From assembly GCA_022730075.1 (NCBI GenBank), contig DZBX01000005.1, forward strand, positions 1 through 50,881: DNA of 50,881 nt, in the 5' to 3' direction. Shown piece after piece: positions 27,847 to 34,368 of the stretch. Position numbers and translations under genes: made by a program. Numbering within the stretch: position 1 is the stretch's first letter; each line of letters starts with the position of its first letter. Under the pieces are notes generated by a model. That model saw only the letters and a list, made by a program, of their open reading frames with translations, had not been told where the DNA came from and searched no databases. Source of the DNA: Rhodanobacter sp. GTDB taxonomy: Bacteria > Pseudomonadota > Gammaproteobacteria > Xanthomonadales > Rhodanobacteraceae.

Positions 27847-29565
27847 TCAGCGCGCCGTGCGTTGCAGGTACTGCGCCACCGGTACGCGCTCGCGGATGCG
27901 CCCGGCAGCCATCACCGCGACTTCATCGACCAGGTGCGCGAGGCCGCCGAGGCGGTGCGTGATCAGCAGCAGCGTGCGCCCGCGCGCGGCGATATCCAGC
28001 GCGGCATACAGGTCACGCGCGGTGCGCGCATCGAGACCCTCGGTGGGCTCGTCCAGCACCAGTACCGGCGCATCCTGCAGCAGTGCGCGCGCGATGGCGA
28101 TGCGCCGCGCTTCGCCGCCGGAGACCAGTGCGCCCGCCTCGCCCAGCATCGTGTCGTAACCCCGCGGCAGGGCCGCCACGAACGCATCCATCTGCGCCTG
28201 GTTCACGGCGCGCTCGATCTGCGCCGCCGTGGCATCGGGTGCGGCCAGCAGCAGGTTGTCCAGCAGCGACAGGTTGAACAAGGTGGTCTGCTGGCTGATC
28301 ACCGCGATGTGCCGACGCAACACGTCGCCCTGCAGCGCATCCAGCGGCTGCCCGCCCAACATGATGCGTCCCTGCTGCAACGGATAGAACTTCAGCAGCG
28401 CGCCCAGCAGCGAGCTCTTGCCCGCGCCCGAGGCGCCGACCACGGCCATGCGCGCACCGGCCTGCAGTTGCAGATCGACGCCGGCCAGCGCCCACGGCGC
28501 GTCATCGGCATAGCGCAGATGCACGTTCTCGAATGCGATCACCACCGCCGCTGGCAGCGATGCGCAGATCTCCGGCTCGATGAATGCGGGTGGCGTGTCG
28601 GCCAGGTCGAACACGCGCGCGGCGGCGGTGATCGTGGCCTGCCATTGCGCCAGTGCCTCGGGCAGCGGCGCGATCACCTCGAACATGGCCAATGCCAGCA
28701 GCGTCAGCATCACCAGCAGTGGCGGCGCCAGCCCGCCGTCATGTACCGCCGCCAGACCGAACACCAACAGGCCGAGCACGACGAATTGCGCCAGCAGGCC
28801 GACCATGCCGCCTCCCCATGCCTGCAGCATCTCGATGCGCGCGCGCCGCGCCGCGAGTCGCGTACTCAGCGCATCGATGCGCGCGGCCTGCGCTTCGACA
28901 CCGCCCCAGGCAAGCAGCTCGGCGTGACCGTGCAAGGCATCCAGCAGCAATCCACGCAGCGCGGCGGCATCGCGCACCGCCTGCGCCGCATCGCGTGCTG
29001 CGCGCCGTCGCGCCCATGCGGGCAATACCACCCCCGCCAGCAGCGCGCCGATCAGCAGCACCAGCGCCGCGCCAGGCAACACGAAGAAAGCCAGAACCAG
29101 TACCAGCACGAGGCTCAGCAAGGCCACCGCCGCCGGCACCAGCACGGCCAGATAGAAATGCTCCAGCGCATCGATGTCGGCGCGCAGACGTGCGAACAAT
29201 TCGCCACTGCGCAACGCCGACAGCCGCGCTGGAGCCAGCGGAATCAGGCGCCGGAACAGCCATGCGCGCAACCCGGCCAGGCTGCGCAAGGTGGCCTCGT
29301 GGGTGACCAGGCGATCACCGTAGCGGCCGCCACTGCGCAGGATGGCGAAGGCGCGGATCGCCGCGGCCGGGCTGAAATAATTGATCGCCGCGCCGGTGAA
29401 TCCGGCCAGCGCCATGGCGGCGATGAACCAGCCCGACACCGCCATCAGGCCCAGCACTGCGAGCGCGGTCAGCAGCGCCAGTGCCGCGCCGCCGAACATC
29501 CAGCCGCGATACGGACGCAGCACCGCCAGCAGGCGGCGCAGCGCGGGCGGCAGCAGGCGCGTCAT
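27847..29565 (-). CDS. cydC: Thiol reductant ABC exporter subunit CydC
   Basis: One half of the CydDC heterodimeric exporter of cysteine/glutathione, needed for cytochrome bd and c assembly. It is 572 residues: six membrane helices (about 15-310) and an ABC domain with GASGAGKSS, LVSGGEARRIAIARALL and Walker B VLVLDEPTEG. The start MTRLLPPALRR at 29565 overlaps the cydD stop as ATGA. Longer upstream frame is inside cydD. Last gene of the cyd cluster. Confidence 0.93.
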   Translation of the reverse strand: MTRLLPPALRRLLAVLRPYRGWMFGGAALALLTALAVLGLMAVSGWFIAAMALAGFTGAAINYFSPAAAIRAFAILRSGGRYGDRLVTHEATLRSLAGLRAWLFRRLIPLAPARLSALRSGELFARLRADIDALEHFYLAVLVPAAVALLSLVLVLVLAFFVLPGAALVLLIGALLAGVVLPAWARRRAARDAAQAVRDAAALRGLLLDALHGHAELLAWGGVEAQAARIDALSTRLAARRARIEMLQAWGGGMVGLLAQFVVLGLLVFGLAAVHDGGLAPPLLVMLTLLALAMFEVIAPLPEALAQWQATITAAARVFDLADTPPAFIEPEICASLPAAVVIAFENVHLRYADDAPWALAGVDLQLQAGARMAVVGASGAGKSSLLGALLKFYPLQQGRIMLGGQPLDALQGDVLRRHIAVISQQTTLFNLSLLDNLLLAAPDATAAQIERAVNQAQMDAFVAALPRGYDTMLGEAGALVSGGEARRIAIARALLQDAPVLVLDEPTEGLDARTARDLYAALDIAARGRTLLLITHRLGGLAHLVDEVAVMAAGRIRERVPVAQYLQRTAR

Positions 29566-31304
29566 TGCGCTTCCGCCTGCACAAGCGCTGCATAGGCCCC
29601 CTGCGCGTGCGCCAGTTGCTGCGGCGTGCCCTGTTCGATCACCGCGCCATCGCGCAATACCACCAGCCAATCCGCTGCCCGCGCCGCCGCCAGGCGATGC
29701 GCCACCAGCAGCACCGTGCGCGTCGCCGCGGCGGCGCGGATGACCTGCTCCACCGCATGCGCACTTTCCGCATCGAGGTGTGCGGTGGGCTCGTCCAGCA
29801 GCCAGACATCGGCGCGCTCACGCAACAAGGCGCGCGCCAGCGCCAGGCGCTGCAACTCGCCCCCCGACAAGCCCAGCCCGCGTTCGCCCAGCGGGGTTTC
29901 CCAGCCGCGCGGCAAACGCGCCAACACGACGTCGAGCCCGCTGGCGGCAGCCGCGCGCTGCAGCGCCAGGGTATCCGCACCGGGCGCGGCCAGCAGCAGG
30001 TTGTCGCGCACGCTGCCCTCGAAGACATGCGTCTGCTGTGGCACCCAGGCCACGCGTGCACGCCACTGCGTCATATCCAGTTCGCTCAGATCGACACCCT
30101 CGACGAGGATGCGACCGGACGCGGCCGGCATGAAGCCCAGCAGCAGATTCAGCAGCGTGCTCTTGCCCGAACCGGTTGCACCGATCAGTGCGGTGACGCG
30201 CCGCGGCGGGATGTCGAAGCTGCACCCGCGCAACGCCGCTGCGCGCCCGGCATGGCTGTAATGCACGGCATCGACGCGCAAGCCTGGTGCCGCGCGGGCC
30301 GGCGCCAGCGCGCCGCCAGTCAGTGGCGCGCTGGCCGGCGGCGGCGTTTCCTCCAGCGCGGCCAGATGCTGCGCCGCGGCCAGCGCATCCATGCGCGCGT
30401 GGCGCAAGCTGCCCAGCGCGCGCAGCGGCAGATAGAACTCCGGCGCCAGCAGCAACACGAACAAGCCATCGCGGAACGGCAACTCGCCCCAGAGCAGACG
30501 AAAGCCGATCAGCACCGCGACCACGGCGATGCTGACCGTGGCGAAAAACTCCAGCACCAGCGCCGAGAGGAACGCCACGCGCAGCACCTGCATGGTGAGC
30601 TTGCGGTAGTCCTCGCCATCGGCATCCAGGCGCTGCGCCACGCGCTCGGCAGCGCCCAGTTGGCGCAGCGTGGCGAGGCCGCCCAACGCGTCCATGAAAG
30701 CCGCGCCCAGACGCGTGAGCTGCGCGTAGCGCTGCTGGCTGGCGCGTTCGGCGGCACTGCCCACCAGCACCATGAAAAACGGAATCAGCGGCGCGGTCAG
30801 CAGCAGGATCAGACCCGAGACCCAGTCGGCAGGAAACACGAACAGCGCCAGCAGCAGCGGCACCAGCGCCGCCGTGCTCACCTGTGGCAGATAACGCGCG
30901 AAATACGGCAACACCGCGTCGACGCCATCGACCAGACGCGTGATCAGGTCGCCGCTGGTTTGCGCGCGCAGCCCGATCGGGCCCAGCGCCTGCGCGCGCG
31001 CAAGCAGGCGCGTGCGCAGTTGCGCAGTCAAATCCAGCGCCGCTGAAAACGAGGTGCGGCGCGCGTAAAAATTCAGCAGCAGGCGCAGCGGCGCCAGCAG
31101 CAGCAGCCCGATCCACTGTGGCCACAGCCGCGCCAAGGGCGCATGCGCGAACAGCGCCGCGTTGAGGATGTCGGCCAGCAGCCACGCCTGCGCCACCAAG
31201 GCCAGAGCCTGCAGCGCCGTGGCCAGCGCTGCGCGCCACTGTGGTTTGCGAATCTGCCGTGCCTCGCGGCGCAGCCAGCTTGCGGCCTGCATGCCTGATT
31301 CCAT
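29562..31304 (-). CDS. cydD: Thiol reductant ABC exporter subunit CydD
   Basis: Partner of CydC. About 580 residues: membrane domain, then ABC domain with GATGSGKSTLLN, GLSGGELQRLALARALL and VWLLDEPTAHLD. The start is uncertain: ATG 31304 is used here; a TTG at 31343 lies in the tail of the preceding hairpin and an ATG at 31292 has AGG just upstream. It is separated from the CydX-like gene by about 90 nt containing a terminator-like hairpin, so it may be expressed at a lower level than cydAB. Confidence 0.92.
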   Translation of the reverse strand: MESGMQAASWLRREARQIRKPQWRAALATALQALALVAQAWLLADILNAALFAHAPLARLWPQWIGLLLLAPLRLLLNFYARRTSFSAALDLTAQLRTRLLARAQALGPIGLRAQTSGDLITRLVDGVDAVLPYFARYLPQVSTAALVPLLLALFVFPADWVSGLILLLTAPLIPFFMVLVGSAAERASQQRYAQLTRLGAAFMDALGGLATLRQLGAAERVAQRLDADGEDYRKLTMQVLRVAFLSALVLEFFATVSIAVVAVLIGFRLLWGELPFRDGLFVLLLAPEFYLPLRALGSLRHARMDALAAAQHLAALEETPPPASAPLTGGALAPARAAPGLRVDAVHYSHAGRAAALRGCSFDIPPRRVTALIGATGSGKSTLLNLLLGFMPAASGRILVEGVDLSELDMTQWRARVAWVPQQTHVFEGSVRDNLLLAAPGADTLALQRAAAASGLDVVLARLPRGWETPLGERGLGLSGGELQRLALARALLRERADVWLLDEPTAHLDAESAHAVEQVIRAAAATRTVLLVAHRLAAARAADWLVVLRDGAVIEQGTPQQLAHAQGAYAALVQAEAQ

Positions 31305-31348
31305 CGATGGGTTTGCCAGGCGCAGCCTGCCGCGCGCCCGCAAAATGT

Positions 31349-31394: not shown

Positions 31395-31610
31395 TCAAAG
31401 CGGCTTGCGTGCGCCACCGGCAACCTGCCCGGCGGCGTGTTCCTCCTGCGTGTCCAGCAGCGCCGCACTGGCGGCCGAGATCAGCACGATCATGGCCGTT
31501 CCCACCAGCCAGGCGAAATACCACGCACCCTGATCACCCAGCAGCACGGCCAGAAGAATGACCACGACGGCCAGGAACATGAACAGCAGGAAATACAGAA
31601 AAGTCTTCAT
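31395..31610 (-). CDS. CydX-like small subunit of cytochrome bd with an extra N-terminal membrane helix
   Basis: 71-residue membrane protein directly after cydB (10-nt gap; the RBS GAGGA overlaps the cydB TGA). Residues 29-38 read AWYFAWLVGT, closely matching the start of E. coli CydX (WYFAWILGT), followed by a hydrophobic stretch and an acidic/polar tail (DTQEEH), also as in CydX. Unlike classic CydX (about 37 residues), it has an additional N-terminal helix (about 4-25, FLYFLLFMFLAVVVILLAVLL). CydX is needed for stability and activity of the bd oxidase. A role as the accessory subunit here follows from the motif and location; the purpose of the added helix is unknown. Confidence 0.75.
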   Translation of the reverse strand: MKTFLYFLLFMFLAVVVILLAVLLGDQGAWYFAWLVGTAMIVLISAASAALLDTQEEHAAGQVAGGARKPL

Positions 31611-31620
31611 CGCGGGTTCC

Positions 31621-32754
31621 TCAGTATGCGTGTTCGTCTTCGGCGATTTTCTCGGCACTGACCTTGCCGCGCATCACCCAGAAAGCCCAGCTCGTGTACC
31701 AGAGGATCAGCGGCACGAATACCAGCGCGAAACCCAGCATCCACAGCAGCGTCAGCTCACTGGAACTGGAGTTCCACACGGTCAGGCTGACCGATGGATC
31801 GCTGCTCGAGGGCAGCATGAAGGGGAATAGCGAGACGCCCGCCGTGCCGATCACGCCGATCCACGCCAATGCGCCCAGCCACCAGCCCAGATGCGAGCGT
31901 CGCGCGCGCGCGGCCAGCAGCGCACCGAGCATGCCGGCGAAACCCAGCAACGGCACCAGCCACAGGATCGGCCGCGCGGCGAAGTTGGCCTGCCATGCAC
32001 CCGGCACCATCGCGACGACTTGTTGCAGCGGGGTTTGCGGCACGCCGGCGCCGGGACCGCTGACGATGTGGTAGCCCGGCAACATGTGCACCCACGCACC
32101 ACCAACGGCGAACAGCACGATCGCGACAATCGCGGCGACTTGCACCAGACCACGCGCACGCTGGTACATCGCGCCCTCGGCGCCATTCATCACCGTCAGC
32201 GCGCCCATCATCGCCGCCAGCGCCAGCGCCAGCACGCCGCTCATGATCGCGAAGGGATTGAGCAGACCCAGGAAACTGCCGGTATAGAACGAGGTCAGGT
32301 TCCACTCGAAATGGAATGGCACGCCGTGGAACAGATTGCCGAAGGCCGCGCCGAACACGATCATCGGCACCGCGCCGCTGACCAGGAACACCCAGTCCCA
32401 CACGTTGCGCCAGACCGGGTTGGCGATCTTGCTGCGGTACTCGAAGCCCAGTGGACGCATGATCATGGTCCACAGCAACAGCAGCATGACCACGTAAAAG
32501 CCCGAGAAGGCAGTGGCGTAGATCAGTGGGAATGCCGCGAAAATCGCACCGCCGCCGAGGATGAACCACACCTGGTTGCCGTCCCAGTGCGGGCCGATGA
32601 TGTTCAGCGCCACGCGCCGTTCCAGGTCCGTGCGCCCGACATAGCGCAGGATCGCGCCCACGCCCATGTCCATGCCCACCATCACCGCCAGGCCGATCAG
32701 CAAAACGCCCAGCAACAGCCACCAGATCACCTGCAGGATCGCATAGATTTCCAT
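31621..32754 (-). CDS. cydB: Cytochrome bd ubiquinol oxidase subunit II
   Basis: Structural partner of CydA in the high-affinity terminal oxidase of the inner membrane. It is 377 residues (E. coli 379), with the typical MGMDMGVGAILRYVGRTDLERRVALN start region, GPHWDGNQVWFILGGGAIFAAFP, and multiple helices ending ILWYTSWAFWVMRGKVS. It starts 3 nt after the cydA stop, so the two are co-translated. Confidence 0.97.
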   Translation of the reverse strand: MEIYAILQVIWWLLLGVLLIGLAVMVGMDMGVGAILRYVGRTDLERRVALNIIGPHWDGNQVWFILGGGAIFAAFPLIYATAFSGFYVVMLLLLWTMIMRPLGFEYRSKIANPVWRNVWDWVFLVSGAVPMIVFGAAFGNLFHGVPFHFEWNLTSFYTGSFLGLLNPFAIMSGVLALALAAMMGALTVMNGAEGAMYQRARGLVQVAAIVAIVLFAVGGAWVHMLPGYHIVSGPGAGVPQTPLQQVVAMVPGAWQANFAARPILWLVPLLGFAGMLGALLAARARRSHLGWWLGALAWIGVIGTAGVSLFPFMLPSSSDPSVSLTVWNSSSSELTLLWMLGFALVFVPLILWYTSWAFWVMRGKVSAEKIAEDEHAY

Positions 32755-32757
32755 GAC

Positions 32758-34368
32758 TCAGCCCTCCAGATTCGTGTCGTGCGCGGCGGCCGGGACCGGC
32801 CGTGGCGCTAGCGCGGGACGTGGCCGCGGACGCGCATCGCCACCACCGTGATGCGCCTCGGGCCCTTGGCGGATCGCGCGCACCATCAGAACCATCTCGA
32901 CCGCGATGAAGATCGAATACAAGCCGACAAAACCGATCAGCGAGAACACCATGTAGCCCACGCTGTGCGTGGAAGCGCTCATCCAGGTCGGCAGCACACC
33001 GAACACCGTCCACGGCTGCCGACCCAGCTCGGCCACCAGCCAGCCACACTCGTTGGCCAGGAACGGCACCGGGATCATCCACACCGCCGCGATCAGGAAC
33101 CAGCGCTTGTCCTGCACCTTGTTGCGCAGGGTGTACAACACCGCCAGCACGAAGAACGCCAGCATCAGCAGGCCGAAGCCGACCATCGCACGGAATGACC
33201 AAAACACCCACGCGACGGGCGGAATGGTGTCACGTGCCGCCTGTTGCACCTGCGCCGGGGTGACGTTGTTCAGGTCAGGCGCGTAGCGCTGTACCAGAAA
33301 GCCATAGCCGAGATCTTTTTCGTGCGCGTTGAATTGCGCCAGCGCCGCCGCGTCCTTGGGGTCCTTCGAAAGCGTCCGCAGCGCCTGCACCGCGGGGATG
33401 CCGTTTTCGATCTTGCGCGTGGCCTCTTGCTCCAGGGTGTTCACGCCCGCGACCGTGCCATCGATCGAGTGGGTCACCAGCAGGGATAACAGATAGGGGA
33501 TGCGCACCGCGCCCGCGTTCTCCTGCTTGGCCTGGTCGGGAAACGCAATGAGGTTGAACGACATCGGCGCGGGCTCGCTCTTCCACAGGCCCTCCATCGC
33601 CGCCAATTTGGTCGGCTGCGCCTGCGCGGCGACAAAGCCCAGCGCATCGCCCAGGGTGATCACGCCGATCGTGGCCATCACGCCATACAGCGCGGCCATG
33701 CGAAACGAGCGCTTGGCCAGCTCCATGTGGCGCTTCTTCAACATGTAGAACGCACTGATGCCCGCCACGAAGACCGCCGCGGTCACATAGCCGGCAATGC
33801 TGGTATGCACGAACTTGGATTGCGCATCGGGACTGAAGATCAACTGCTGGAAGCTGCTCAGCTGCATGCGCAGGGTGGTCGGGTCGAAGACCGCGCCCTT
33901 GGGATCCTGCATGAAGCTGTTGGCCACCAGGATCCACAGCGCCGAGAGGTTGGAGGCCAGCGCCACCAGCCAGGTCACCGCCAGATGCTGCCCCTTGGAC
34001 AGACGCTCCCAGCCGAAGATCATCAGGCCGACGAAGGTCGACTCCATGAAGAACGCCATCAGACCCTCGATGGCCAGCGGCGCACCGAAAATGTCGCCGA
34101 CGAAACTGGAATAAAACGACCAGTTGGTGCCGAACTGGAACTCCATGGTCAGGCCGGTGGCCACGCCCAGGGCGAAGTTGATCATGAACAACTTGCCCCA
34201 GAACTGCGCCATCTCCTTGTAGATCGGCTTGCCGGTGGTGACATACACCGTCTCCATCGCCGCCAGCAGAAAGCTGAGGCCCAGGGTCAGCGGCACGAAC
34301 AGGAAGTGATACAGCACGGTGGACGCGAACTGTATGCGGGAGAGATCGACAACGGTTCCATCAATCAT
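32758..34368 (-). CDS. cydA: Cytochrome bd ubiquinol oxidase subunit I
   Basis: Quinol-oxidising, heme-bearing subunit that reduces O2 to water at low oxygen. It is 536 residues. Heme ligands are His21 (LYHFLFVPL), His188 (KFVHTSIAGY) and Met395 (FRAMVGFG), each two beyond E. coli His19/His186/Met393. The long Q-loop type is indicated by length and by the 250-390 region. The C-terminal tail after residue 500 is rich in His, Pro, Arg and Ala. First gene of the operon, behind a consensus FNR/Anr box. Confidence 0.97.
   Translation of the reverse strand: MIDGTVVDLSRIQFASTVLYHFLFVPLTLGLSFLLAAMETVYVTTGKPIYKEMAQFWGKLFMINFALGVATGLTMEFQFGTNWSFYSSFVGDIFGAPLAIEGLMAFFMESTFVGLMIFGWERLSKGQHLAVTWLVALASNLSALWILVANSFMQDPKGAVFDPTTLRMQLSSFQQLIFSPDAQSKFVHTSIAGYVTAAVFVAGISAFYMLKKRHMELAKRSFRMAALYGVMATIGVITLGDALGFVAAQAQPTKLAAMEGLWKSEPAPMSFNLIAFPDQAKQENAGAVRIPYLLSLLVTHSIDGTVAGVNTLEQEATRKIENGIPAVQALRTLSKDPKDAAALAQFNAHEKDLGYGFLVQRYAPDLNNVTPAQVQQAARDTIPPVAWVFWSFRAMVGFGLLMLAFFVLAVLYTLRNKVQDKRWFLIAAVWMIPVPFLANECGWLVAELGRQPWTVFGVLPTWMSASTHSVGYMVFSLIGFVGLYSIFIAVEMVLMVRAIRQGPEAHHGGGDARPRPRPALAPRPVPAAAHDTNLEG

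Follow-up and report, generated by a model that had tools for sequence, protein, structure and literature searches.

A two-helix CydX encoded downstream of cydB in Rhodanobacter sp. and its association with one clade of long Q-loop cytochrome bd oxidases

Our study examined a 50,881-nucleotide stretch of DNA from Rhodanobacter sp. (assembly GCA_022730075.1, contig DZBX01000005.1; hereafter the window) and found that a small gene directly downstream of cydB, at positions 31395–31610 on the minus strand, encodes a CydX subunit of cytochrome bd quinol oxidase with an extra N-terminal hydrophobic helix. Our sequence comparisons suggest that this two-helix form marks one clade of long Q-loop CydA with altered quinol-site residues, an association that is apparently new. 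The gene comprises 71 codons and a stop, was delimited by translation, family matches, a conserved start and synteny, and encodes, from 31610 to 31395 on the minus strand, the protein MKTFLYFLLFMFLAVVVILLAVLLGDQGAWYFAWLVGTAMIVLISAASAALLDTQEEHAAGQVAGGARKPL. The plus strand is also free of stops across 31395–31610, but its translation is an unrelated sequence. A prediction made earlier from the letters of the window (the original prediction) had placed a small CydX-like gene directly after cydB, naming no strand, with AWYFAWLVGT at residue 29; the gene is real, and its translation bears out the motif and its position.

Residues 30 onward were confirmed to be homologous to CydX. The window protein taken singly remains below threshold, so this homology was established through profiles. 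Its best Pfam match is indeed YbgT_YccB, the family against which the original prediction had proposed a search, but the match is not significant for a single sequence (E=0.017; 15.6 bits, below the gathering score of 26.2), and unrelated Pfam families come close behind, the first of them at E=0.02. TIGR02106 likewise fell below its cut-off (E=0.067), a PF08173 profile search of the window's own genome gave no match, and the sole PDB match at E up to 10 was E. coli CydX (E=0.011, residues 30–62). When a profile of 79 two-helix proteins was compared with one of 17 one-helix CydX proteins, the two matched with a probability of 97.2% (E=3.5e-11, 38 columns), and 76 of the 79 two-helix members had YbgT_YccB matches of E 0.1 or lower, the lowest being 2e-5. 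Two relatives (L074 and L075) were left out of this alignment, as they start away from the common place. The published CydX motif, YxxWxxGx15E/D (PMC4325964), is present as Y31, W34, G37 and D53, the last aligned to E25 of E. coli CydX; the tyrosine, tryptophan and glycine are found in 79/79 relatives, as is Asp or Glu at position 53. Allen et al. also accepted some homologues lacking a significant Pfam match, on the basis of position, ribosome-binding site and alignment (PMC4325964). The CydX likeness proposed originally is thus upheld by the family profile, the motif and the operon position. Searching the PDB with the two-helix family returned only one-helix CydX and four weak matches to complex I.

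The protein divides into four parts, all encoded on the minus strand. The additional segment is hydrophobic and of membrane-helix length, as had been predicted, and spans residues 4–24 (31539–31601), judged from the composition of 79 distinct relatives. Its conserved positions are F7, A14, I18 and A/G21, and the helix has a single conserved face (permutation p 0.017). It is followed by a five-residue loop, GDQGA (residues 25–29; 31524–31538), which in the relatives' alignment is mostly G-(D/E)-x-G-(A/P/S) and constant in length, with G25 in 79/79, D/E26 in 66/79 and G/A28 in 79/79. The CydX-homologous helix (WYFAWLVGT..., residues 30–52; 31455–31523) was assigned by Pfam, PDB, alignment and profile comparison, and the hydrophilic C-terminal tail (residues 53–71; 31398–31454) by the PDB match and alignments. 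The protein does not have the classical form of a single helix from Met1-Trp2, since 29 residues including a hydrophobic segment precede the tryptophan.

The two-helix form is already in the literature. In 2014 Allen et al. described, from Alpha-, Beta- and Gammaproteobacteria, CydX homologues whose N-terminal extension bears a further hydrophobic helix, and the Figure 7 legend of that paper places Thiomonas, Bordetella, Frateuria, Acidiphilium, Acidithiobacillus and Acetobacter in a grey-clade alignment, by our counting through the legend (PMC4325964). Degli Esposti et al. reported in 2015 a two-transmembrane cydX in acetic acid bacteria (PMC5322542). The window gene adds one more member to this group: it shares the N-terminal hydrophobic helix before the CydX helix and the position 3' of cydB, and its relatives come from overlapping or close taxa (Frateuria, Acidithiobacillus, Thiomonas and Acetobacteraceae), whose copies cluster with it in the CydA tree of our collected genomes. 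The groups were equated by published description and taxa, and by that comparison no difference was found for the window copy. The one-helix proteins of E. coli, CydX (bd-I, 37 aa, PDB 6rko_X) and AppX/CbdX (bd-II), share with it the genomic position and a long Q-loop CydA, and CydX also the WYFAW...G...E/D core; they differ in having one helix only, which in CydX begins with Met1-Trp2. DUF2474/CydZ (PF10617) of CIO-type oxidases is likewise a small membrane protein following cydB and has been proposed as related to the long cydX (PMC5322542), but it partners short Q-loop CydA (PMC4325964) and its model gave no match to the window protein at E up to 10.

The survey of cyd operons that accompanied the original prediction as a proposed check showed that the two-helix form recurs. 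When 299 genomes of the order were searched with the window protein (E up to 0.01), 18 gave matches, 13 of them strong (E 7e-16 or better, the window genome included). Twelve of these 13 were read and all twelve are two-helix; L011, which was dropped by a length filter, has a match spanning residues 1–57. The five weak matches comprise one ordinary CydX (L016) and four apparently unrelated sequences. A one-helix CydX above the Pfam cut-off was found in 89/299 genomes and in none of the 13 with a strong two-helix match, and one genus (g9) contains both forms, in separate species. L016 has ALGDTG ahead of MWYFSW, resembling the two-helix loop, which we ascribe to its ribosome-binding site.

A named genome collection yielded at least 125 relatives, and counts given here of 80, or of 79 distinct, refer to the best 80. 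Among the carriers are Rhodanobacter, Dyella, Luteibacter, Oleiagrimonas, Frateuria, Thiococcus, Thiomonas, Gallionella, Burkholderia, Paraburkholderia, Rubrivivax, Acidithiobacillus, Acidocella and Commensalibacter. In 78/80 relatives the start of the gene falls anywhere from 11 bases before the end of cydB to 127 bases after it; the sequence of the remaining two (L058, L065) stops short of cydB. A cydD-like gene is next on the same strand in 46/80. A start codon lies exactly 29 codons ahead of the tryptophan of WYF as ATG in 76/80 and as GTG in 3/80. This fixed spacing in 79/80, with the position after cydB in 78/80, indicates that the two-helix gene does not arise by chance. Several of the carriers are acidophilic genera (Acidithiobacillus, Acidocella) or presumably metagenome bins from acid drainage, which may hint at a link with acid habitats, to which Thiococcus and Oleiagrimonas are exceptions. 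One genome (G261, contig 34) has two one-helix CydX genes of equal score, at 97519–97596 and 99116–99193, around 1.6 kb apart, and part of its operon is possibly duplicated.

Phylogenetic inference of CydA placed the two-helix form in a single clade. A tree of 111 CydA sequences (77 from two-helix loci, 28 from one-helix loci and 6 with no CydX seen by motif, although the genomes of these six do carry a CydX above cut-off) parted the 77 two-helix rows from the rest by one branch with a support of 100. The tree was made by a quick method that gave long-branch warnings, and it omits 6/80 two-helix loci that lack a CydA of near-full length (L058, L065, L088, L091, L098 and L101) and 4/40 added stretches (L137, whose CydA is distant and which has no CydB; L155, where CydA matched only in part; and L159 and L160, which are truncated). 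Its longest terminal branch is the CydA of L171 (genome G608), whose CydX is a divergent two-helix form with KWYLIW replacing AWYFAW and whose CydA has glutamate at position 243.

The clade differs from the 34 other rows at a series of CydA positions (E. coli numbering). Position 188 is serine in 77/77 two-helix rows and valine in 34/34 others, 233 is glycine or alanine in 75/77 (serine in 33/34), 240 is alanine in 75/77 (glutamate in 33/34), 241 is leucine in 77/77 (serine in 34/34) and 250 is proline in 77/77 (lysine in 31 and glutamine in 3 of 34). At the quinol site itself, position 243 is tyrosine in 34/34 others and phenylalanine in 62, arginine in 9, tyrosine in 5 and glutamate in 1 of the 77 two-helix rows, and position 298 is arginine in 34/34 others and histidine in 76/77. 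In the window, alignment places Phe245 (33634–33636, minus strand) at Tyr243 and His300 (33469–33471, minus strand) at Arg298. Lys252 and Glu257 are retained in 111/111 rows, and the Q-loop span from Asp241 up to Phe389 is 148–158 residues in the two-helix rows against 148–152 in the others; by this span the window CydA is of the long Q-loop type with which the CydX family is partnered. In E. coli bd-I the quinone is held by Tyr243 and Arg298, whose replacement by alanine leaves the enzyme inactive, Arg298 also contacts a lipid at the dimer interface, and changing Ser233 to alanine loses heme d (PMC13189123). The published rule that Tyr243 and Arg298 are uniquely conserved in long Q-loop oxidases appears to be broken by the two-helix clade.

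E. coli bd-II, whose AppX has one helix, likewise carries Gly233, Pro250 and His298 while keeping Ile35, Val188 and Tyr243, and this sharing weighs against an exclusive link of those three residues to the two-helix form. The presence of His298 in both bd-II and the two-helix clade makes the statement on Arg298 conservation look too broad. As an independent check, 369 genomes of the class were searched with CydA rather than CydX; 70 of them gave a match, and we read the 30 best loci. Eight of the 30, the window included, had the two-helix type of CydA residues, and seven of the eight had a two-helix CydX. At the eighth (L182, extended by L207; genome G826), cydB is present and no CydX of either kind was seen within about 550 bases downstream; its CydA reads A-V-T-A-A-S-F-P-H at nine marker positions. 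The other 22 loci had the classical residues; 21 of these (L208 and L209 among them) had a one-helix CydX and one ran off the contig end, and a two-helix CydX was seen in none of the 22. On the tree the two-helix form has a single origin, so that its link to the CydA residues rests on one event, and the pairing is evidence of association and not of cause.

Turning to the arrangement of the two helices, the 71-residue protein would be a structural subunit of the adjoining oxidase, folded as a hairpin. Lysine or arginine occurs in the N-terminal tail of 73/79 distinct relatives and in the loop of 7/79, and the loop carries a net negative charge in 67/79. By the positive-inside rule this charge pattern suggests that the N-terminus is cytoplasmic, that helix 1 runs outward to a periplasmic Gly-Asp-x-Gly turn, and that helix 2, the CydX helix, returns from periplasm to cytoplasm, where the acidic C-tail would lie. 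This agrees with a cryo-electron microscopy account in which the C-terminal part of CydX is exposed to the cytoplasm (PMC6853902). Helix 2 would occupy the CydX groove of CydA, formed by helices 1, 5 and 6, which CydX contacts in known structures (PMC6853902, PMC8951039), and would clamp the heme domain. The shortness of the five-residue loop implies that helix 1 should sit beside helix 2, and we lean towards a hairpin subunit in which helix 1, so tethered, packs against the outward face of helix 2. It is through that face that two CydX copies meet in the dimers of E. coli bd-I and bd-II (PMC13189123, PMC8585947), so the extra helix may stand in for the dimer partner inside one chain, besides setting the insertion topology and going along with the reshaped quinol site of CydA.

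A helical-wheel comparison of residue volumes between 79 two-helix and 29 one-helix proteins bears on the docking face. The CydX-helix residues that shrank in the two-helix form (mostly 1, 18, 19, 20, 22 and 26 in CydX numbering) have an average direction of 82 degrees; the dimer-face residues of AppX, as listed in PMC8585947, have a mean of 91 degrees, and Y3, W6 and G9 a mean of 240 degrees. Shrinkage toward the dimer face gave a permutation p of 0.031, and several, though not all, dimer-face residues are bulkier in the one-helix form. The position equivalent to Met1, which with Trp2 is a dimer contact in E. coli bd-I (PMC13189123), is alanine, proline, serine or threonine in 79/79 two-helix proteins. 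In bd-II, CydA residue 42 touches the partner AppX (PMC8585947); seven residues away, position 35 is alanine in 70/77 two-helix rows against isoleucine in 33/34 others, the window residue being Ala37 in helix 1 (34258–34260, minus strand). The face analysis, taken with the single conserved face of helix 1, is suggestive of docking on the dimer face, and the two-helix clade would appear to combine a different quinol pocket with a changed CydX dimer face.

The same analysis disfavours the idea in the original prediction that one protein fills both accessory sites, with helix 2 in the CydX site and helix 1 in the CydH/CydY cleft between CydA helices 1 and 9, closing the O2 path to heme b595. CydH/CydY (YnhF, NF033411) is, like the window protein, a small accessory subunit of a long Q-loop bd oxidase, and itself has a single helix; it differs in its site on CydA and in a gene that lies away from the cyd operon. 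Both sites contact CydA helix 1 (PMC8951039), and CydH was above cut-off in 0/17 two-helix genomes searched, which would leave its site free. However, CydH was below cut-off in 36/37 other genomes too (G588 being a near miss at E 1.6e-4), and with only 1/54 genomes above cut-off its absence is uninformative and not tied to the two-helix form. The window protein gave no match to NF033411 at E up to 10, in a search whose filters discard most weak matches, whereas the model does recognise YnhF; moreover, E. coli bd-II functions without CydH (PMC8585947). Dual occupancy is very unlikely, given the short, fixed loop of about five residues and a CydH cleft that lies on the far side of CydA from the CydX site (PMC8951039, PMC6853902).

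Helix 1 could alternatively be mainly topogenic, orienting the CydX helix on insertion and thereafter having little structural role or being removed, which we consider doubtful. A single N-out helix such as that of CydX has no preceding topogenic segment, which speaks for such a role, and lysine or arginine near the N-terminus with an acidic loop is a standard insertion signal. DUF2474 proteins have a related N-terminal part, for which a signal-peptide role has been suggested (PMC5322542), and in the open literature, as accessible to us, this was the only proposal found that touches on the role of the extra helix in the oxidase. Nevertheless, the conserved face of helix 1, the invariant Gly25 and the fixed length exceed the needs of a mere signal. 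The stretch before W30 is, besides, a poor signal-peptidase site, with proline at –1 relative to W30 in 22/79 relatives, and this counts against the topogenic role.

The sequence evidence that places helix 1 on the dimer side would equally suit an arrangement in which it strengthens dimerisation, two hairpins forming a four-helix bundle between protomers that replaces the two-helix CydX contact, and the activity of the E. coli enzyme does rise on dimerisation (PMC13189123). Such a bundle is an improbable outcome in our view, as the side of helix 1 near 139 degrees is variable, so that a second conserved face to which a partner could bind is not evident.

Several results weigh against the hairpin that we prefer and against its docking on the dimer face. 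AlphaFold2, given the small protein alone with a 79-row alignment, returned one unbroken helix over residues 2–66 (mean predicted local distance difference test score, pLDDT, 81.9, dipping to 69 at residues 21–30; predicted template modelling score 0.42), although two hydrophobic segments split by Gly-Asp-x-Gly are unlikely to cross the membrane as a single rod. A fused CydA–CydB–CydX single-chain AlphaFold2 model, used to approximate the complex and built for a locus at which the three frames coincide (L082), shows the small protein in two helices; its mean pLDDT is 67, and values of 44–69 in the small protein make the docking unreadable. Mutual information between the helices, computed from 78 rows (effective number 28), had no peak at antiparallel pairs. 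Volumes were anti-correlated, as antiparallel packing would predict, at three adjacent registers and in part also when one-helix volumes were used; this signal is neither register- nor face-specific and does not fix the docking face. In the helical-wheel comparison, the signed volume change gave p 0.054 and the undirected tests p 0.11 (shrinkage) and 0.22 (signed), and dimer-face positions 11 and 15 are bulkier in the two-helix form, as are 13 and 14. Finally, Allen et al. gave the opposite orientation, with the N-terminus of CydX cytoplasmic (PMC4325964).

The surrounding operon reads, on the minus strand, cydA, cydB, two-helix cydX, cydD and cydC. The cydA gene (32758–34368) was assigned to the long Q-loop type and to the two-helix clade by family matches, the CydA tree, residue alignment and Q-loop span, and its product matches subunit 1 of E. 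coli bd-II at E=5.4e-185 and of bd-I at E=9.2e-181. It is followed by cydB (31621–32754; TIGR00203, E=2.3e-121), whose stop codon at 31623–31621 is separated by a gap of 10 bases from the cydX start codon, ATG, at 31610–31608. A Shine–Dalgarno-like GAGGA, read from the sequence at 31618–31622 on the minus strand, lies 7 bases 5' of this ATG and overlaps the cydB stop. Downstream are cydD (29562–31343; TIGR02857, E=2.5e-177) and cydC (TIGR02868, E=5.5e-128), the latter listed as an open reading frame at 27847–29670; its family match opens at residue 45, and the true start is probably internal to that frame. The NCBIfam scores of CydB, CydD and CydC all exceed their model cut-offs.

In summary, recent structures present CydX as the hinge of dimerisation and tie activity to the Tyr/Arg quinol pair, and a clade that is without the Met1 contact and mostly without that pair offers a natural test of both ideas. 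It is possible, though we hold it only tentatively, that the two-helix CydX acts as an intramolecular stand-in for the dimer partner and sets apart a type of long Q-loop oxidase of its own, one that has replaced or rebuilt its dimerisation and oxidises quinol with no need of the Tyr243/Arg298 pair on which E. coli bd-I depends. If so, the Tyr243/Arg298 rule would fail throughout a clade that extends across Alpha-, Beta- and Gammaproteobacteria and Acidithiobacillus, and, should the hairpin model hold, the type of oxidase could be read from the small gene alone.
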